A DNA stretch of 64,000 bases from Candidatus Aminicenantota bacterium (GTDB taxonomy: Bacteria; Acidobacteriota; Aminicenantia; Aminicenantales; UBA4085). The position numbers and the translations under genes are program-made. Positions 5,908-61,505 of this stretch are shown piece by piece (the stretch's first letter is position 1; each line of letters opens with the position of its first letter). Under the pieces are notes generated by a model. The model worked only from the letters and a program-made list of their open reading frames with translations, was not told the origin of the DNA and ran no database searches. The stretch lies in contig PLMN01000016.1 of NCBI GenBank assembly GCA_003141555.1, positions 1 to 64,000 of the forward strand, given 5' to 3'.

Positions 5908-5991
5908 GGCGGGTCAGCCTCCTCATCCAAGGCCCCCGCCGTTTCCGCCGAGAAATGCCCTCGGTCTTCCACCCGAAGACGGGCAACGAGG

Positions 5992-6140
5992 CCCGATCAA
6001 GGTTTCCTGACTCTCGGATCGCTCTCCTCCCGGGCCTTCCCGCCCTCTCGCCGAGAGGACCGTGGCATCGTCCGGGATTCGTCCCCGATTACAGTAGCGG
6101 GGGCTGTGTCCGTATCTCACGGACTTCCCTTGTCTCGTGA
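5992..6140 (-). promoter_or_regulatory. cobalamin riboswitch
   Basis: Read on the - strand, this stretch carries the hallmark cobalamin-aptamer blocks in order: GGGAAGTCCGTGAGA, a GCCCCCGCTACTGTAA core, CGGGGACGAATCC, GCCAC, GGGAAGGC and the B12 box GAGTCAGGAAACC near base 6000. After the B12 box a hairpin (CCTCG...CGAGG, about 5957-5991) could be the kissing-loop/expression stem before the receptor start codon. Known members bind adenosylcobalamin or related corrinoids and shut off transport genes when cofactor is plentiful. Confidence 0.93.
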
Positions 6141-6151
6141 CCTGAGACTTA

Positions 6152-6181
6152 TTTATAGACCAGAGAGAAGGGGGGTGTCAA
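6152..6181 (-). promoter_or_regulatory. sigma-70-type promoter of riboswitch/receptor
   Basis: On the - strand TTGACA, an 18-base spacer and TATAAA sit directly upstream of the cobalamin aptamer. Transcription would start near base 6145, a few bases before the aptamer. Confidence 0.75.
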
Positions 6182-8893: not shown

Positions 8894-8964
8894 TGAAAAA
8901 GGGGACACAGAACCCCGATTGACTATCGGTGATGGCAAGCTAGCGTTCTGTGTCCCCTTTTTCA
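8894..8964. repeat. GGGGACA palindromic repeat, copy 1 (possible bidirectional terminator)
   Basis: Two perfect 20-base inverted arms (8894-8913 and 8945-8964) share the core AAAAAGGGGACACAGAAC / GTTCTGTGTCCCCTTTTT. An inner small hairpin (CCGAT/ATCGG) lies in the loop. The arm ends in a run of T on either strand, so it would work as an intrinsic terminator in both directions. The right arm covers the stop codon of the GH172 gene. Related copies are at 17663-17733 and 37618-37689. Confidence 0.75.
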
Positions 8965-10971: not shown

Positions 10972-12509
10972 CGGTCCGTCCTTCCTTGTTCCCAGGGGAG
11001 CCCGGCCTTCCGGAAAAACTCGGCGGCCGGCGCGGTCCTGACCTTGTCGGCCGTCACGGCCAGGGGATAGGCCTGGATTGCCGTGTCCTCATCGAGGACT
11101 TCCCGGGGCATGTTCGGGTTGGCGTATTTAATGGGCGAAGGCGAATCGGCCGCGAGATCGGACTTGAAAGCTTCGGCGTCCTGGGTCACGACGGCCACGA
11201 AGGCGTTTGCGAAATTCAGGTATTTGCGGATCGCCTTGTTCACGTCCGCCCGGGTGAGCTTGGGCAGGACGGCCTCCGCCGCGGCCAGGATGTCGTCCGT
11301 CCCGTAATAGTGCGCGTCCATCTGCCAACCGAGACGCTCGTCGAGAGTCTGGGCGGTAAGCTTCGTGGAGCGCAGGAGGTAGGACCGGGCGAGCTGGAAG
11401 CGCTCCTCGGAGAGGCCGTCCTCGACGAGCTTCTTCAGCTCCCGGAGCGCCTGCCGAAGGACGAAGTGGCGGTCGGCGTTGGCCAGCGGCCGGATCCAGA
11501 TCGAGAAATACTGCTGCTGGCGGCCGTGGTTTGGCGCCGGAAACTTATCGCGGCCTTGGACGAAATGCTCGATGTAGGCATAGTCGCCCGTATTCCGGCC
11601 CCGCTCCTCGCGGATCTTCTGGGTGAGGAGCGAGAGGCTTTGCCGGTGCTCGCCGAAATGGGCCTGGGCGATCCAGAGAGCGAAGAAGTCCTTGTCGGCC
11701 CGGGTGAGGGCGATGGGGAAGCCCAGGGAGATCGCGGTCGCGGGCGTGGGCTTGTCCGCGATCGCGAACTCCAGGCCCCGCGCTGCCCGCGCCGGCGGAA
11801 GGACTAAGCGCGGGGTGAAGGTCTGCGGGAGGCGGGCGAAGTCGGCGGCGATCCTGTCCGGGAACTCCCGTGGATACCCGCCCGCAAGCCCGAGGACGAT
11901 GTTCCCCTGGACGAAATATTCCCGGTAGAACGCCTTCGCGTCGTCGAGGGTCAGGCCCGCCACCGATTCGAGCGTGCCGGCCTCATGGTGGCCGTAGGGG
12001 TGGCCGTCGTAAAGCATCAGGTTCAGGATTTCCTTCCCGAGCTGCTCATCCATGTCGCCGACGAGCGTCTTTTCGAGGAAGGCGAGCTGGTCGGCCTTGA
12101 CCCGGGCGAAGTCGTCCTCGCGGAAGCCGGGGTCGAGGAGCATGTCCTTGACGACGGCGTAGTAGCGTTCCAAGTTGTCGCGGTGGACCGTGCCGGAGAA
12201 TGCCGACAGCTCCTTGTCCACGCTCAGGGAGAGGTCCGCGGCCAGGGGATAGAGCTTTTCGGCGATGTCCCGGACGCTCATCGACCGGGAGCCGCCTTCG
12301 GCGAGCAGGCTCCACGTGAGCCGGGCGAGGCCCTCCTTGCCGGACGGATCGTGGGCCGAGCCGACCCGGACCAGGATCCGGAAGCAGACGAGAGGGCTCC
12401 CTTCGAGAGGGAGAAGGTCCCGGCCGAGCTTCAAGGGGGCCGCCCTGCCGCAAGAAACGGACAGGACCGCGGCGGCGAGAAGCGCGCGGGCGAGGGCCCG
12501 GACCTTCAT
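10968..12509 (-). CDS. M16-family protease subunit with degenerate active site
   Basis: A 513-aa M16 (pitrilysin/insulinase-type) protein with an N-terminal signal (possible lipoprotein, cysteine near residue 20). In the position of the zinc motif HxxEH it has GLARLTWSLL, so both histidines and the glutamate are missing. In paired bacterial M16 systems the second subunit is often such an inactive partner that forms half of the clam-shell chamber. The active partner is encoded immediately upstream with a four-base overlap (ATGA). Substrate unknown; periplasmic location is predicted. Confidence 0.85.
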   Translation of the reverse strand: MKVRALARALLAAAVLSVSCGRAAPLKLGRDLLPLEGSPLVCFRILVRVGSAHDPSGKEGLARLTWSLLAEGGSRSMSVRDIAEKLYPLAADLSLSVDKELSAFSGTVHRDNLERYYAVVKDMLLDPGFREDDFARVKADQLAFLEKTLVGDMDEQLGKEILNLMLYDGHPYGHHEAGTLESVAGLTLDDAKAFYREYFVQGNIVLGLAGGYPREFPDRIAADFARLPQTFTPRLVLPPARAARGLEFAIADKPTPATAISLGFPIALTRADKDFFALWIAQAHFGEHRQSLSLLTQKIREERGRNTGDYAYIEHFVQGRDKFPAPNHGRQQQYFSIWIRPLANADRHFVLRQALRELKKLVEDGLSEERFQLARSYLLRSTKLTAQTLDERLGWQMDAHYYGTDDILAAAEAVLPKLTRADVNKAIRKYLNFANAFVAVVTQDAEAFKSDLAADSPSPIKYANPNMPREVLDEDTAIQAYPLAVTADKVRTAPAAEFFRKAGLPWEQGRTDR

Positions 12510-13951
12510 GGGGTTTCTCCCTTCGCCGCTTCCCCGGTCAGGGTGACGGTCGCGGAGTTCGATGGCTTGAAATACTTCCGGGCCGCGTCCTGGATGTCCC
12601 GGGGCGAGACCCTGTCGCGGAGGTTGAAGATCCTGTTCACCGTGCCGGGATCGCCCGTAAGGTTGAGGTAGAAGGCCAGGGTGGCGGCCGCCCCATCCGT
12701 GGTCTCGAGGGCTCGGGCCAGGGCGTACTTCCGGCGGGATTTGACGTCGGCCAGGCGCGCGGCCGGCGCGGGCTCGGCTTTGACCCGCTCGAGCTCCTTC
12801 AGGATCTCGGCTTCAACGGTGGGGAGATCGCCCTCGTTGTTCACCACGGCGCTGATGACGAAAAGCGACGGGTCGCGCGTGTCCGGGAAATCCGCGGTCA
12901 GCGAGCGGCAGGTCCGGTCCTTGTTGACGAGCTTCTGGTAGAGCGGCGAGGCCGAGGCGAACGAGAGCTCGGCCAGCAGATCGAGCGCGGCCTTGTCGGC
13001 CGCCGTGTCGGAAAACGCGGGTCCGTGGAAGCCGACGGCGATCCGGGCCGGCGCGCCGGCCGGCCCCGCGATGCGGGCCCTCCGGGCCTTCTCCTGCGGC
13101 GGTTCGACCGGCGTCTGGAGGTCGTAGTTCGATATCTTCCAGGCGCCGTAGTATTTCCGGACGAAGGCCGCGAGCTGGGCGGGATCGAAGTCCCCGGCCA
13201 CGAGGAGAATGGTGTTGTCGGGGGCGAAGAAGCGTTTCTTATAGAGGAGGCTGTATTCATACTGGTTGGGCAGTTCCTGGATGTCCTTCAGGGAGCCCAG
13301 GGTCGTGTGCTTGTAGGGATGGCGCTCGAAAGCCGTGTCGCGGAGCGTCTCGATCAGGCGCCGGGCGGGATCCGAGGCGCCGGCATAGTACTCGCTCTCG
13401 ATGACCGCGGCCTCGGTCCTGAGCATGTCTTCCGAGGGAGCAAGGTTGATGAACCGGTCGGCTTCGGTCCGGACGACATTCTCCAGGCTGTCGCGTCCGG
13501 CGAAGACGACGGAATAGCAGGTGAAGTCGTCGGTCGTGGCGCTGTTCGTTCCGGCGCCAAGGCGCGCCAGGAAATCGCCGTAGGCGGCTCGCGGGACCTG
13601 CTTCGTCCCCTTGGACATCATATGCTCGAAGAAGTGGGCGAAACCGGATTTCCCGGGCTCGATCTCGTTCCGCGATCCGGAACGGACGATCGTGTAGTAC
13701 GAAATGATGTTCGGGTTGGAGAGCGGCAGGGAGACGACCTTCAAGCCGTTTTCGAGCGTCTCGACTTTGACCGCAAAGGGGAAGATGCCGCCCTGCGGGG
13801 CTGCGGTCGTCGTGCCTCCGGCACCTGCAGCGCCGCCCTGCGGGGCCGCCGTGGTCGTGCCTGCGGCACCTGCGGCTCCGCCCCGCGGAGCGGCCAGCCC
13901 CAGTCCCAGGCACAGGCACAGGACGAGGGTTCGGGCGATGATTCCAGTCAT
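12506..13951 (-). CDS. M16-family zinc metalloprotease, active subunit
   Basis: A 481-aa secreted M16 peptidase. A signal peptide (about residues 1-22) is followed by two low-complexity 15-residue repeats (GAAGAAGTTTAAPQG and GAAGAGGTTTAAPQG, residues about 24-53), then the catalytic domain with HFFEH in GFAHFFEHMM near residue 106 and the downstream glutamate region. The repeats are encoded by the 45-nt hairpin module described at 13788-13880, read in antisense, and are not part of the normal family fold. RBS AGGAGGG precedes the ATG. It pairs with the inactive M16 gene downstream. Confidence 0.9.
   Translation of the reverse strand: MTGIIARTLVLCLCLGLGLAAPRGGAAGAAGTTTAAPQGGAAGAGGTTTAAPQGGIFPFAVKVETLENGLKVVSLPLSNPNIISYYTIVRSGSRNEIEPGKSGFAHFFEHMMSKGTKQVPRAAYGDFLARLGAGTNSATTDDFTCYSVVFAGRDSLENVVRTEADRFINLAPSEDMLRTEAAVIESEYYAGASDPARRLIETLRDTAFERHPYKHTTLGSLKDIQELPNQYEYSLLYKKRFFAPDNTILLVAGDFDPAQLAAFVRKYYGAWKISNYDLQTPVEPPQEKARRARIAGPAGAPARIAVGFHGPAFSDTAADKAALDLLAELSFASASPLYQKLVNKDRTCRSLTADFPDTRDPSLFVISAVVNNEGDLPTVEAEILKELERVKAEPAPAARLADVKSRRKYALARALETTDGAAATLAFYLNLTGDPGTVNRIFNLRDRVSPRDIQDAARKYFKPSNSATVTLTGEAAKGETP
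13788..13880 (+). repeat. 45-nt hairpin module, copies A and B
   Basis: Two tandem 45-base units. Copy A: outer stem GCTGC (13800-13804)/GCAGC (13827-13831), inner stem GTGCC/GGCAC with a TCC loop. Copy B: outer GCCGC (13845-13849)/GCGGC (13872-13876), inner GTGCC/GGCAC with a TGC loop. Both have a 7-base/2-base internal loop and a CCGCCCTGCGG-like tail. Differences from the copies at 17.6 and 44.4 kb are compensatory. Here it encodes the repeats near the N-terminus of the M16 protease. Confidence 0.8.
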
Positions 13952-16643: not shown

Positions 16644-17690
16644 ATGACCGCCCCGACCCCGCGCGCCGCGAACGGCAACGGGCCGGCCTTCGGCTCGAGC
16701 GACGCCCTCATGCTGGCGGCGGTGGTGATGTGGGGGATCAATTTCGCCATCATCAAGTTCGCCCTCCGGGACATGGCTCCTGGCGGATTCAACGGCTTGC
16801 GGCTCATCCTCACCTCGGTCCTCTTTCTGATCGTGGTTTTGGTGAGCCGCGAGCGCTTCCGCTTCGAGCGGGGCGATCTCCTCAAGCTGGCCGCGGTCGG
16901 GATCGTGGGCAACGCCCTCTACCAGATCGTCTTCATCCGCGGGGTCAGCCTGACCTCGGCCTCAAACACGTCGTTCATCCTCTCGACCTCGCCCCTGTTC
17001 GTCGCCCTGCTGAGCGCCGTGCTCCGGATCGAGCGAATCCACTGGGCGGCCTGGCTCGGGATCCTGGTTTCGGTCGGCGGGCTGTACCTGGTCATCGCCG
17101 GGCGCGCCGGCGGGCTCGATGTCGCATCCGGCCACTTCCGGGGCGACCTTCTCGTCTTCAGCGGCGCCCTCTTCTGGGCGTCCTACACCGTGTTCTCCAA
17201 GCCCTTCCTCGACCGGATGTCCCCCCTCCAGTTCTCGGCCGTCACCGTCTGGGCCGGAGCCCTGGTCTATGTCCCCTATGCGGCTCCGGACATTCGGGCC
17301 GTCGATTGGTCGGCGCTTACGGCGCTCGACGCGCTCCTGATCCTGCTCTCGGCCCTTTTCGGCTTCGTGCTCGGGTACTTGATCTGGTACAACTCGGTGA
17401 AGAAGGTGGGGAACGCCAAGACCGCGATCTACAGCAACCTCACGCCCGTCTTCACCGCCTTGTTCGCGGCCCTGCTGTTGGGCGAGAACTTCCGGGCCGT
17501 CCAGATCGCCGGCGCGGCGGTCATCCTGGCGGGCGTGTACTTGACGCGGTCCGGGTATCGGTATTTCGTGCGGTCCCTCCCGGCGGGTCCTGTCGCCGAC
17601 CAGCGGGGTCGCGATCGTCGCGCCTCCGGCGCATGCGACGCCGCCCTGCCCCGCCGGCCTCCGGAAAAAGGGGACACAGAACCCCGATGA
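16644..17690 (+). CDS. EamA-family (drug/metabolite superfamily) transporter
   Basis: A 348-aa membrane protein with ten predicted helices arranged as two EamA repeats (about residues 22-150 and 165-300). Such proteins export or import metabolites; the substrate is unknown. The gene follows queF by 40 bases. The true domain ends near residue 305 (YLTRSGYRYFVRSL). The remaining tail is translated from two unrelated repeats: the 45-nt hairpin module (17608-17650) and the left arm of the GGGGACA palindrome, which supplies the stop codon. The tail is therefore likely a by-product of repeat insertion. Confidence 0.85.
   Translation: MTAPTPRAANGNGPAFGSSDALMLAAVVMWGINFAIIKFALRDMAPGGFNGLRLILTSVLFLIVVLVSRERFRFERGDLLKLAAVGIVGNALYQIVFIRGVSLTSASNTSFILSTSPLFVALLSAVLRIERIHWAAWLGILVSVGGLYLVIAGRAGGLDVASGHFRGDLLVFSGALFWASYTVFSKPFLDRMSPLQFSAVTVWAGALVYVPYAAPDIRAVDWSALTALDALLILLSALFGFVLGYLIWYNSVKKVGNAKTAIYSNLTPVFTALFAALLLGENFRAVQIAGAAVILAGVYLTRSGYRYFVRSLPAGPVADQRGRDRRASGACDAALPRRPPEKGDTEPR
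17608..17650 (+). repeat. 45-nt hairpin module, copy C
   Basis: Outer stem GTCGC (17608-17612)/GCGAC (17635-17639); inner stem GCGCC/GGCGC with a TCC loop; 7-base and 2-base internal-loop strands; tail GCCGCCCTGCC. The outer stem differs from the consensus GCCGC/GCGGC by a paired C-to-T and G-to-A change. It lies within the 3' end of the EamA gene. Confidence 0.75.
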
Positions 17691-17733
17691 TGACCTGCTA
17701 AGAGTTGGCTGGCGTTCTATGCCCCCTTTTTCC
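17663..17733. repeat. GGGGACA palindromic repeat, copy 2
   Basis: Left arm 17663-17682 and right arm 17714-17733 match each other at 18 of 20 positions; the left arm is identical to copy 1 in its 18-base core. It lies between the convergent EamA and PAP2 genes and includes the EamA stop codon, a position suited to a bidirectional terminator. The rest of the gap to 18007 shows no gene. Confidence 0.7.
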
Positions 17734-18007
17734 GTCCCATTCGCTTGGGCCGGCGGGGCGAATTCGTTATCCGGGAGGCGAGGGGGAGAGGGCAAGGAGA
17801 CCGTGCCGACGGCCCTCCCCCCGAGCCTCGCGGTTTTCCGGAGGCCGGTGGGGCTGGTCGGCGCACTTGACCGCGATCTTATACGCGGTCAAGCACAGGC
17901 GTAACATGACCCCCAGGCCAGAGCCTGGGGCCCCCAACGCCGACAGGACCCGCCGGACCCGCCGGGCGAGGCAGTGTGTTTTCGTCCCGTACCCCCGAAG
18001 CCGCCCG

Positions 18008-37617: not shown

Positions 37618-37689
37618 GGGAAAAAGGGGACACGGAGCACTCAATTTCCTTCTGCGGACGATCATCGGGGCTTTCTGCCCCCTTTTCCC
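37618..37689. repeat. GGGGACA palindromic repeat, copy 3 (degenerate)
   Basis: Left arm GGGAAAAAGGGGACACGGAG (from 37618) matches copies 1 and 2; the right arm (37671-37689, CTTTCTGCCCCCTTTTCCC) is an imperfect inverse. It sits between the divergent promoters of tatA/B and ctpA. Confidence 0.55.
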
Positions 37690-43128: not shown

Positions 43129-44496
43129 ATGGATTCGTTCGCGATCCGGAACTTCGGCTGCCGGGTCAACCAGGCCGAGGCCTTCGCCTGGGCCGAGGAG
43201 CTCCAGCGCCGCGGCCTGCGCCTTGAGACCGACCCCGCGCGGAGCGGGATCGTGGTCGTCAATTCCTGCACCCTGACCGGCCGGGCCGACCGCGACGTGC
43301 GGAAGTTCGTTCGCCGCATCCTCCGCGAAAACCCCGGGGCGCGCCTTGTCGTCACGGGCTGCCTGGCTGAGCGCGACCCGGGTGGGTTCGATAGCCTGCC
43401 CGGCGTCTGGAAGGTCGTCCCCAACGGGGCGAAGGCGTCGCTCCCGGATCTCCTGGCCCCGGCCGGGCGATTTGCGGCCGGGGACGAACCGGCTGTCGGC
43501 GCGCGTTCCTTCCGGGCGCGGGCGATGCTCAAGGTCCAGGATGGCTGTGACCGTGCCTGTTGCTTCTGCGTCATCCCGAGCGTCCGGGGAAGGAGCGTCA
43601 GCCTGCCTCTCGCCGCGGCCGTCGACCGCGCCCGGGCGTTTGCCGCCCAAGGATTCAAGGAGATCGTCCTGACGGGCATCCACCTCTGTTCCTGGGGACA
43701 GGACTTGGAGCCGCGCCGAACGCTCGCGGACCTCCTCGCGGCCGTCGCCGCGGCGCCCGGGGATTTCCGGGTCCGGCTGAGCTCGCTCGATCCGCGGCTC
43801 ATGCCGGCGCCGCTCGTCGACCTCCTCGTCTCGTCCCCGCGGATCTGCCCCCATTTCCACCTTTCGCTCCAGCACGCTTCGGCCGGGATCCTGCGGGCCA
43901 TGGGCCGGAACAGCACGCCCGGGGAATACCGGGAAATTCTGGCCGCGCTCCACAGGAAGGCTCCCGAAGCCGCGCTCGGGGCCGACGTCATCGTCGGGTT
44001 CCCGGGCGAGACCGAGGAGGATTTCCGGGAGCTCGAGGCGTTCCTGACGGCGGCCCCGCTGGCATATATCCATGTCTTCGCTTATTCGCCCCGCCCGGGA
44101 ACGGCGGCCGAGGGCGAGACGGGCGTGCCGTCTAGGATCAAGGCCGGCCGCGCGATCCGCCTGCGCCGGCTTTCCAAGGAGAAATGGACGGCTTACCGGG
44201 AGGCGTTCGTCGGGCGAGTCCTCGACGGCATCGTCGTGAGGGCGGGCCGGCCGGAAGCGGAGGTCCTGACTTCGAACTACATCGACGTCCGCGCCCCGGG
44301 AGAGGGCGCGGCGCGGGGGAGCGCGGTCCGGGTGAAGATCACTCGGGTGGCGGATGGGGCCGCGGTGGTCGCGCCTGAGGCGCATGCGGCTCCACCCTGC
44401 GGTACCGCGGAGGTCGCGCCAAAGGCGCATGCGGCTCCGCCCTGCGCCGCGGCGTTCGGCGAGATCGTCGGGGACGGGCCCGGCGGGCGGTCTTGA
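43129..44496 (+). CDS. mtaB: MtaB-like tRNA methylthiotransferase with repeat-interrupted TRAM domain
   Basis: A 455-aa MiaB-family radical SAM enzyme. It has an N-terminal cluster with cysteines in NFGCRVNQAEA, NSCTLTG and TGCLAE, a radical SAM motif in CDRACCFC near residue 140, and a C-terminal TRAM region. The MtaB branch makes ms2t6A at tRNA position 37. The TRAM region reads VRVKITRVADG, then about 30 residues encoded by two 45-nt hairpin modules, then FGEIVGD, which is the expected last strand. The inserted repeats therefore split a conserved domain but keep the frame open. Operon with purE and mutL. Confidence 0.88.
   Translation: MDSFAIRNFGCRVNQAEAFAWAEELQRRGLRLETDPARSGIVVVNSCTLTGRADRDVRKFVRRILRENPGARLVVTGCLAERDPGGFDSLPGVWKVVPNGAKASLPDLLAPAGRFAAGDEPAVGARSFRARAMLKVQDGCDRACCFCVIPSVRGRSVSLPLAAAVDRARAFAAQGFKEIVLTGIHLCSWGQDLEPRRTLADLLAAVAAAPGDFRVRLSSLDPRLMPAPLVDLLVSSPRICPHFHLSLQHASAGILRAMGRNSTPGEYREILAALHRKAPEAALGADVIVGFPGETEEDFRELEAFLTAAPLAYIHVFAYSPRPGTAAEGETGVPSRIKAGRAIRLRRLSKEKWTAYREAFVGRVLDGIVVRAGRPEAEVLTSNYIDVRAPGEGAARGSAVRVKITRVADGAAVVAPEAHAAPPCGTAEVAPKAHAAPPCAAAFGEIVGDGPGGRS
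44359..44448 (+). repeat. 45-nt hairpin module, copies D and E
   Basis: Copy D: outer stem GCCGC (44359-44363)/GCGGC (44386-44390), inner GCGCC/GGCGC with a TGA loop. Copy E: outer ACCGC (44404-44408)/GCGGC (44431-44435), inner GCGCC/GGCGC with an AAA loop. Period is exactly 45 bases. They are homologous to copies A-C in the same orientation on the + strand. Confidence 0.8.
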
Positions 44497-59609: not shown

Positions 59610-59690
59610 TAAGAATAAGACGCAATGCAAATTCACAAACACCTTGTAGGAGACGAAATGAATCCGCAAGGAAATTCAAGGAGGTTTTCA

Positions 59691-60215
59691 ATGATTAAGA
59701 AGCAGGAAGGCTTCACTCTCATCGAGCTGTTGATCGTTGTCGCGATCATCGGCATCCTGGCGGCGTTGCTGGTCCCGAACGCCATGACCGCGCTCCAGAA
59801 GGCCAAGGTCCGCGGTACGCAGAAAGACTTGCAGATGATTGCTACGTACATCACGGACTACGTCACCGACCACTCCAACCCCCCGGCGAACAATGGGGCC
59901 ATCAGCACGACGCTAAAGACGGCCCTCTCGCCCATGTATGTCAAGGTTCTCCCGCTCAATGACCAGTGGGGTACGAACTTCATGGTCTACACCGGCACGA
60001 ACGTAACGGTCTACGGGATTACCGGCGCCGCGGCGGACGACTACCTGGCTTCGTCCTACGGCCGGGACAAGACCGTCGAATCGTGGACCTACAACTCGTC
60101 CACGCCGGAATCGGGGCTGTACACGATCAGCACCACGGCCGATTTCAACAAGGACATCGTGAACTACAACGGGTCCTTCATCCGCGGTCCGCGGTCCGGC
60201 GTCTCCGGCTCCTGA
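59691..60215 (+). CDS. type IV pilin / GspG-like pilin 1
   Basis: A 174-aa prepilin: short basic leader MIKKQEG, cleavage site G-FTLIELLIVVAIIGILAALLVP with the fifth-residue glutamate, then a soluble domain with an NNGAIST stretch, DQWGTNF and ESWTYNSSTPESGLYTI. AAGGAGG six bases before ATG 59691 fixes the start; earlier in-frame ATGs at 59625 and 59658 would give an overlong leader. It is nearly identical to pilin 3 (60981-61505). A strong terminator follows. Confidence 0.92.
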   Translation: MIKKQEGFTLIELLIVVAIIGILAALLVPNAMTALQKAKVRGTQKDLQMIATYITDYVTDHSNPPANNGAISTTLKTALSPMYVKVLPLNDQWGTNFMVYTGTNVTVYGITGAAADDYLASSYGRDKTVESWTYNSSTPESGLYTISTTADFNKDIVNYNGSFIRGPRSGVSGS

Positions 60216-60238
60216 TAGCCTAGCAACGGATTTCGCGA

Positions 60239-60271
60239 GGGCGGTCCCGGCGTCGCCGGGGCCGCCCTTTT
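60239..60271 (+). terminator. intrinsic terminator after pilin 1
   Basis: GGGCGGTCCCGGCG and CGCCGGGGCCGCCC form a long GC stem with a TCG-type loop, followed by TTTT. It should end most sigma-54-driven transcripts after pilin 1, making it the major pilin message. Confidence 0.8.
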
Positions 60272-60324
60272 CATTGGCGGGAACCGGGCGGACGACGACT
60301 GGGAATCGGGAAGGAACGGCGTAG

Positions 60325-60849
60325 ATGTCATGCAAGCAAAGAGGCTTTACCCTGATCGAGCTGCTGGTCGCGGTCGCGATCATCGGGATCCTGGCGGCCC
60401 TGCTGGTCCCCGGTGCCGTGACCGCGCTCCAGAAAGCCAAGGTCCGCGGCAGCCAGAAGGATATCCAGCTGATTTCGACCTACATGCTGGATTACATCAC
60501 CGACAAAGTCGTCCCGCCGGCGAACAACGGGGCCATCAGCTCGACGCTGATGACCGCCCTGTCGCCCACCTATACCAAGGTCCTTCCCCTTTCGGACCAG
60601 TGGGGAACGGGCTACAAGGTTTACACCGGCGCGAACGTGACCGTCTACGGAATCACCGGCGCCGGGGCCGACGATTTCCTGATCGCGTCCTACGGCCGGG
60701 ACAAGACCGTCGAATCGTGGACGTACAATGCTTCGTTGCCCGAAGGGGGGCTCTATACCCTCTCCGGCCCCGTCGATTTCAACCGGGACCTCGTCGACTA
60801 CAACGGCCAGTTCATCCGCGGCCCGCGGGTCGGCACGTCCGGCTCCTAA
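60325..60849 (+). CDS. type IV pilin / GspG-like pilin 2
   Basis: A 174-aa prepilin (leader MSCKQRG, site G-FTLIELLVAVAIIG). The soluble domain has the same plan as pilins 1 and 3 but differs at many sites (KVVPPANNGAISSTLMTAL, DQWGTGYKVYTG, DDFLIASYGRD, LYTLSGPVDFNRD). It is the most diverged of the three. It lies beyond the terminator of pilin 1; no clear promoter of its own is seen. It may be a minor pilin or a silent variant. Confidence 0.88.
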   Translation: MSCKQRGFTLIELLVAVAIIGILAALLVPGAVTALQKAKVRGSQKDIQLISTYMLDYITDKVVPPANNGAISSTLMTALSPTYTKVLPLSDQWGTGYKVYTGANVTVYGITGAGADDFLIASYGRDKTVESWTYNASLPEGGLYTLSGPVDFNRDLVDYNGQFIRGPRVGTSGS

Positions 60850-60980
60850 GCGGCCGCCTTCGTCGACCCGGCAGATCCTCATCCGCCGGAGACAATCGAC
60901 TCTTTCCGTCCGGGGACCGTTTGATCCCTTGGTGGACATCTGTTATCATAGTCTTGGAATAATAAGAGGAAGGGGGAATC

Positions 60981-61505
60981 ATGCGTATCCATCGGAACGG
61001 CTTCACCCTGATTGAGCTTCTCATCGTGGTTGCCATCATCGGCATCCTGGCGGCGTTGCTTGTTCCGAACGCCATGACCGCGCTCCAGAAGGCCAAGGTC
61101 CGCGGTACGCAGAAAGACCTGCAGATGATTGCCACGTACATCACGGACTACGTCACCGACCACTCCAACCCCCCGGCGAACAATGGGGCCATCAGCACGA
61201 CGCTAAAGACCGCCCTCTCGCCCATGTACGTCAAGGTCCTCCCGCTAAGGGACCAGTGGGGCTCGTCCTTCATGGTGTACACCGGTACGTCCGTGACGGT
61301 CTACGGTATCACCGGCGCCGCGACGGACGACTACCTGGCTTCGTCCTACGGTCGGGACAAGACCGTCGAATCGTGGACCTACAACTCGTCCACGCCGGAA
61401 TCCGGGCTGTACACGATCAGCACGACGGCCGATTTCAACAAGGACATCGTGAACTACAACGGGTCCTTCATCCGCGGCCCGCGGTCCGGCGTCTCCGGCT
61501 CATAA
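60981..61505 (+). CDS. type IV pilin / GspG-like pilin 3
   Basis: A 174-aa prepilin (leader MRIHRNG). From the cleavage site on it is almost identical to pilin 1 in protein and DNA, with changes clustered around the DQWG loop (N to R, TN to SS, N to S). Such local clustering in otherwise identical DNA suggests recent duplication or gene conversion. GGAAGGGGG precedes the ATG and an AATAAT box is nearby, so it may have its own weak promoter. Confidence 0.9.
   Translation: MRIHRNGFTLIELLIVVAIIGILAALLVPNAMTALQKAKVRGTQKDLQMIATYITDYVTDHSNPPANNGAISTTLKTALSPMYVKVLPLRDQWGSSFMVYTGTSVTVYGITGAATDDYLASSYGRDKTVESWTYNSSTPESGLYTISTTADFNKDIVNYNGSFIRGPRSGVSGS

Follow-up and report, generated by a model that had tools for sequence, protein, structure and literature searches.

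A 45-bp REP/RPE-like hairpin, probably mobile, in genes and intergenic repeats of an Aminicenantales genome

Background

The CGTC REPs, among them RPE-4 and RPE-6, have stems of 8-9 bp that start with A-T pairs, loops of 4-5 nt and CCA tails, and they occur mainly as head-head dimers, head-tail ones being negligible (PMC3733652). At the ends of IS200/IS605 elements, a guide tetranucleotide at the foot of a hairpin pairs both with the target tetranucleotide of the left flank and with the terminal tetranucleotide of the right end (PMC6006769). PARCELs consist of 25-residue units in variable arrays, located in ORFs of unknown function in many clades (PMC2996958). In-frame palindromic insertions have so far been known mainly as a curiosity of Rickettsia and mentioned in passing for other REPs.

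Here we analyse a hairpin repeat in a 64,000-nt stretch of an Aminicenantales genome (contig PLMN01000016.1, positions 1 to 64,000; “the window”). Relatives of its MutL protein put the genome in Candidatus Aminicenantes. A preliminary description had reported five copies of a covarying module inserted in protein genes, likened them to the coding palindromes of Rickettsia, and knew of no described family like them.

Results

All five copies, at three window loci, are present as exact 45-bp units of a dispersed hairpin family. Read on the + strand, the unit is CGGRGYYGC-NNTNGTC-GCGCC-NNN-GGCGC-NT-GCRRCKCCG-CCCTG (45 bp). It folds with 9 bp in the outer stem and 5 bp in the inner one, the two separated by a 7/2 internal loop, and has a triloop and 5 nt of tail. 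The two stems, the internal loop and the triloop had been drawn correctly before, while the outer stem, previously given as 5 bp, extends to as many as 9 bp and is followed by the 3' CCCTG tail; in the unit at 44400-44444 two mismatches interrupt this stem in its lower part. An NGTC motif, which is CGTC in part of the copies, precedes the inner stem, and in the alignment the foot of the unit reads CGGR (CGGA or CGGC on the other strand). An Rfam scan of the window placed no family at the hairpin.

In an alignment of 22 distinct units, standard pairs were found in 93.5% of cells, five stem pairs changed on both sides, and double changes filled 18 cells, compared with 5.7 in shuffles. The covariation score was 0.205 (controls: 0.119 after shuffling, at most 0.067 after sliding); as relatedness among the copies raises such counts, the slid control carries the most weight. 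Covariation above both controls bears out the structure-preserving paired substitutions first seen among the window copies.

The preliminary description had placed the hairpin in protein genes throughout, which holds for the loci at 13.8 and 44.4 kb. At the former, two + strand units (13796-13840, covariance-model E 6.7e-9, boundaries taken from empty sites; and 13841-13885, E 9.1e-8) form a head-to-tail dimer in an M16 peptidase gene on the - strand (12506-13951; Pfam PF05193, 3.9e-24, and PF00675, 2.7e-17), so that on the host strand (-) the unit at 13841 comes first and that at 13796 second. The dimer lies directly behind a putative signal peptide (protein ...AAPRGGAAGAAGTTTAAPQGGAAGAGGTTTAAPQGG...). 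At the latter, the first (44355-44399, +, E 7.1e-9) and second (44400-44444, +, E 1.4e-7) units of a head-to-tail dimer stand near the C-terminus of an MtaB/MiaB-like radical SAM methylthiotransferase (43129-44496, +; TIGR00089, 1.6e-94, above cut-off), read opposite to the orientation in the M16 gene. Homologues of the host proteins checked in related species lack the segment: the M16 orthologues in genomes G001 and G003 are without the repeat, and MtaB/MiaB-like relatives end without it. The 17.6-kb copy (17604-17648, +, E 1.4e-9), on the other hand, is not clearly genic; it sits in an intergenic composite repeat (17581-17758, -; 94% identity to G000:C30:160620-160900) at the 3' end of an ORF.

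The window also contains a cobalamin riboswitch (5984-6169, -; Rfam RF00174, E 6.7e-20) and three tandem paralogous GspG-like pseudopilin genes (59625-61505; 196, 174 and 174 aa), which are 78 to 91% alike over 300 nt.

Genome-wide, a first covariance model detected 22 copies at E 0.012 or better, and a second, built from 22 units, detected 23 units at 18 loci (E up to 0.008), 22 of them at E 1.3e-6 or better. Each window unit scored about 1e-7 to 1e-10 in its own genome, far beyond chance; as the models were built partly from window copies, it is the copies found elsewhere in the genome that constitute independent evidence. Ten of the loci are genic and eight intergenic. Neither outcome that the preliminary description had named as refuting it, a lack of further genomic copies or the presence of the segment in homologues of all three proteins, was observed. 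The uniform + orientation reported earlier is true of the window only, both orientations occurring across the genome. Outside this genome, one good copy was found in G001, the one same-genus genome searched, in a gene whose orthologue here is empty. The covariance-model search returned no match in the other relatives searched or in 395 phylum members; these large searches scored limited candidates per genome, by which distant or degenerate copies may escape, although the own genome still yielded 16. The exact pattern was absent from the viral contigs searched.

Comparison of occupied with empty sites demonstrated insertion and its exact length. About 20 intergenic composite-repeat members end ...GGCCGGTGGGGC|TGGTCGGCGACAGGACCCGC and lack the unit, while two members (one being the window's 17.6-kb copy) carry exactly 45 bp at the bar. 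In a second composite, the unit stands at CGCCCG^CAGGGCGGCG in L019 and a 46-bp unit in L024, other members being empty there. Moreover, the joined flanks aligned without gaps to orthologues after removal of 90 bp (L011/L107, L023/L110) or 45 bp (L025/L122, L029/L115, L034/L116 and L021/L109, including the G001 gene); the regions of L014, L017, L026, L027 and L028 were too divergent to give an exact insertion length. No target-site duplication (AGGG, GC and CG were considered) was consistent over loci and none was present at any clean empty site; a MITE, which would combine terminal inverted repeats with such a duplication, was rejected on the latter ground.

The composites themselves (G000:C30:160620-160900, holding L012 and L035; about 20 relatives; window 17581-17758) are modular intergenic repeats assembled from several blocks, among them TGGTCGGCGACAGGACCCGC. 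Palindromic modules of the form GGAAAAAGGGGACACAGAAC...GTTCTGTGTCCCC, high-copy in the genome, occur in the window at 8894-8964, 17663-17733 and 37619-37686, and are built like the repeats flanking the genome's RAYT genes (GGAGACACAATACC...); no transposase cognate to these modules was found.

The sites of insertion look like the junction formed where the element meets itself end to end, CCCCG^CAGGGCGG. Joined empty sites matched this sequence at a mean of 8.5/13 positions against a window background of 4.1, and 9 of 18 scored 8 or more, as do 2.4% of positions; about half of the sites match it weakly. The motif also stands at sites in genomes or repeats without the element, and the unoccupied orthologue of the host gene in G001 (L116, G000:C9:85000-86300) already holds CCACAGGGTGGAGC, a near-copy of the junction.

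Such likeness, together with an insertion length that always equals the repeat period, might point to replication needing no dedicated enzyme, which would switch template at the short direct repeat CCGCAGGGCGG, copy one unit present elsewhere and return at the next repeat, leaving exactly 45 bp. At half of the sites, 8 to 12 of 13 bases agree with the junction, and hairpins favour template switching. Several clean insertions with poor homology, on the other hand (GGGG^CTGG in the composite repeat; CTA^AGGG and CCA^ATCGG in Mfd and YmdB, respectively), argue against such an origin, and we know of no genome-wide spread by template switching; we regard it as unlikely.

The five dimers are all head-to-tail and all genic (p 0.03 for genic only). 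Unit L011a differs from intergenic copies by 2 changes and from its dimer partner by 10; for L028a the distances are 2 to L027 and 8 to its partner. Both are far closer to copies elsewhere than to their partners, suggesting that the units were inserted one after the other; by this comparison of copies, at least two dimers evidently formed stepwise. As an edge of the element recreates the target, a second copy beside an existing one would follow naturally. Head-to-tail arrays, a junction-like target and the absence of target duplication would also suit a tyrosine recombinase, of which the genome encodes seven, inserting a small circle at a core site that resembles the element's junction, as happens with integron cassettes. 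The unit lacks attC boxes (RYYYAAC...GTTRRRY), the four of the seven recombinases that were checked all fall far below the integron-integrase (IntI) cut-off (one is XerD), and a double-stranded 45-bp circle is implausibly small. An integron cassette is not supported, and we consider the recombinase route improbable.

Every insertion at the ten genic loci is in frame. The hosts comprise an M16 peptidase, an MtaB-like protein, TonB, Mfd (TRCF) at its C-terminus, an M23 peptidase, XdhC and YmdB at its N-terminus, plus three proteins with no Pfam match, and the units follow putative signal peptides or occupy termini or linkers. Seven of the ten loci use the frame QGGAAxAxGATxAAP (p 0.0003 versus one in six); the opposite frame, GAAVVAPxAHAAPPC, is used by two (MtaB and Mfd) and a third frame by XdhC. 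The earlier proposal that frames stay open whichever strand is coding needs correction, and openness in all six frames was rejected: only QGGAA... and GAAVV... are stop-free in every copy, the other four having stops in some. These two frames share third codon positions, at which genic copies mainly vary (p 0.007) and intergenic copies do not (p 0.35); deviations in length (46 and 47 bp) are likewise confined to intergenic copies. Genic copies thus look translated and under purifying selection. A 45-bp unit adds whole codons, and two of its frames are free of stops throughout, so that insertions into permissive parts of genes would survive selection; we read the in-frame pattern as survivorship after insertion, not as frame-guided insertion.

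The predominance of one frame and the third-position variation could alternatively reflect a repeat at the protein level, under selection for the peptide QGGAAxAxGATxAAP and propagated by gene conversion, with the hairpin as a by-product. Several observations argue against this: i) eight intergenic loci carry the unit; ii) three frames on both strands are in use, L027 being in the third; iii) the hosts are unrelated and the stem pairs covary; iv) the third-position variation agrees with ordinary purifying selection acting once the unit was in place. Selection for the peptide as the origin of the repeat is therefore very improbable.

The dispersed, exactly inserted and covarying unit, in frame in its gene hosts and with a preferred target, is in our reading a non-autonomous, REP/RPE-like mobile 45-bp hairpin with junction-like targeting (probability about 0.8). 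The unit would be copied or moved into sites like its own junction without target duplication; permissive gene sites would gain 15 codons per unit, and such insertions would persist under selection; an existing copy would offer its edges as targets, a second copy landing head-to-tail.

The recombining form may be a folded single strand, on which a HUH (Y1; IS200/IS605/RAYT-like) transposase would act. Read in the CAGGG... orientation, CGGA or CGGC at the 5' hairpin foot pairs with the terminal YCCG, and the left flank of the target is often CCG. This is the guide and cleavage layout of IS200/IS605 ends and favours the single-strand route, although the likeness is only suggestive. Two Y1 transposase (RAYT) genes are present in the genome, at G000:C22:35308-35646 and C17:214420-214752; no transposase gene flanked by the unit was found there, both Y1/RAYT genes carrying other terminal repeats. 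Against a HUH enzyme stand the target likeness to the right of the cut, where IS200/IS605 elements need none, and the guide/terminus pairing, which intergenic copies show only in part (CGGC against CCCG). We hold the HUH step tentatively, at somewhat less than an even chance.

A retro-element or an IS110-type enzyme could also be proposed to move a hairpin that leaves no target duplication. Neither a PF00078 reverse transcriptase nor a PF02371 transposase was found in the 97% complete genome, while control genomes gave matches; thus this reading is largely refuted, short of an enzyme that is encoded where the assembly has gaps or has been lost, and its chances are the slightest of all those considered.

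Discussion

The exact unit, its empty sites, its target motif and the stepwise dimers can now be seen directly in another phylum, which bears on how CGTC-type hairpins move. Moreover, with only two candidate Y1 enzymes in the genome, the mobilising activity is testable. The insertions also document a route by which proteins gain 15-residue segments, and form a natural record of tiny-hairpin additions.

The mobile hairpin belongs to the broad known class of REP-like mobile hairpins able to land inside genes: it is a short imperfect palindrome (about 20-65 nt in the class) with many dispersed copies, and its exact empty sites document movement to new sites. To this extent a family like it was already known; the GTAG and CGTC features tested (tag, stem, loop, tail and dimers) were not found in it. 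A literature search for Aminicenantes palindromes returned nothing relevant. It is doubtful that the unit represents a lineage-specific minimal class of mobile DNA, which would recognise sites like its own junction on both sides of the cut, stack head-to-tail by inserting beside itself, use an unrecognised enzyme and be tolerated in genes through two opposed frames sharing third positions.

PARCELs (PMC2996958) likewise consist of repeated coding units that show dyad symmetry, occur in tandem within genes and are suspected of mobility; here the unit has 15 codons, comes as one or two units and is also intergenic. IS200/IS605 ends (PMC6006769) share with it a hairpin, foot guide/terminal tetranucleotide pairing, an end-like target flank and the absence of target duplication, whereas the present element is a single 45-bp hairpin without a transposase gene and with target likeness on both sides of the cut. 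GTAG REPs and REPINs with their RAYTs (PMC3733652, PMC6006769) have an internal-mismatch hairpin and a guide-like tetranucleotide at its foot as well, and for GTAG REPs frame-preserving genic insertions and, for GTAG-23 in T. roseum, palindromic targets have been reported. The unit was rejected as a GTAG REP: its 5' foot has no GTAG/GTRG, a GTAG/GTGG tag and inverted pairs are absent, and the RAYT genes are flanked by repeats other than the unit.

The RPE/CGTC REPs (PMC3733652) come closest. They too are short palindromes, in frame in unrelated genes and also intergenic, with no dedicated transposase known and an (N)GTC motif, placed before the inner stem here. Membership among the CGTC REPs (including RPE-4 and RPE-6) was rejected despite the in-frame genic copies at ten loci, as NGTC precedes a 5-bp GC stem with a triloop and the dimers are head-to-tail in 5/5 cases. 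Unlike those REPs, the present element combines stems of 9+5 bp with a 7/2 internal loop and a triloop, carries a CCCTG tail, forms dimers exclusively head-to-tail and occurs in a host phylum outside those listed in PMC3733652. The likeness to the Rickettsia coding palindromes drawn in the preliminary description is apt as an analogy, by which the element appears to work like an RPE.
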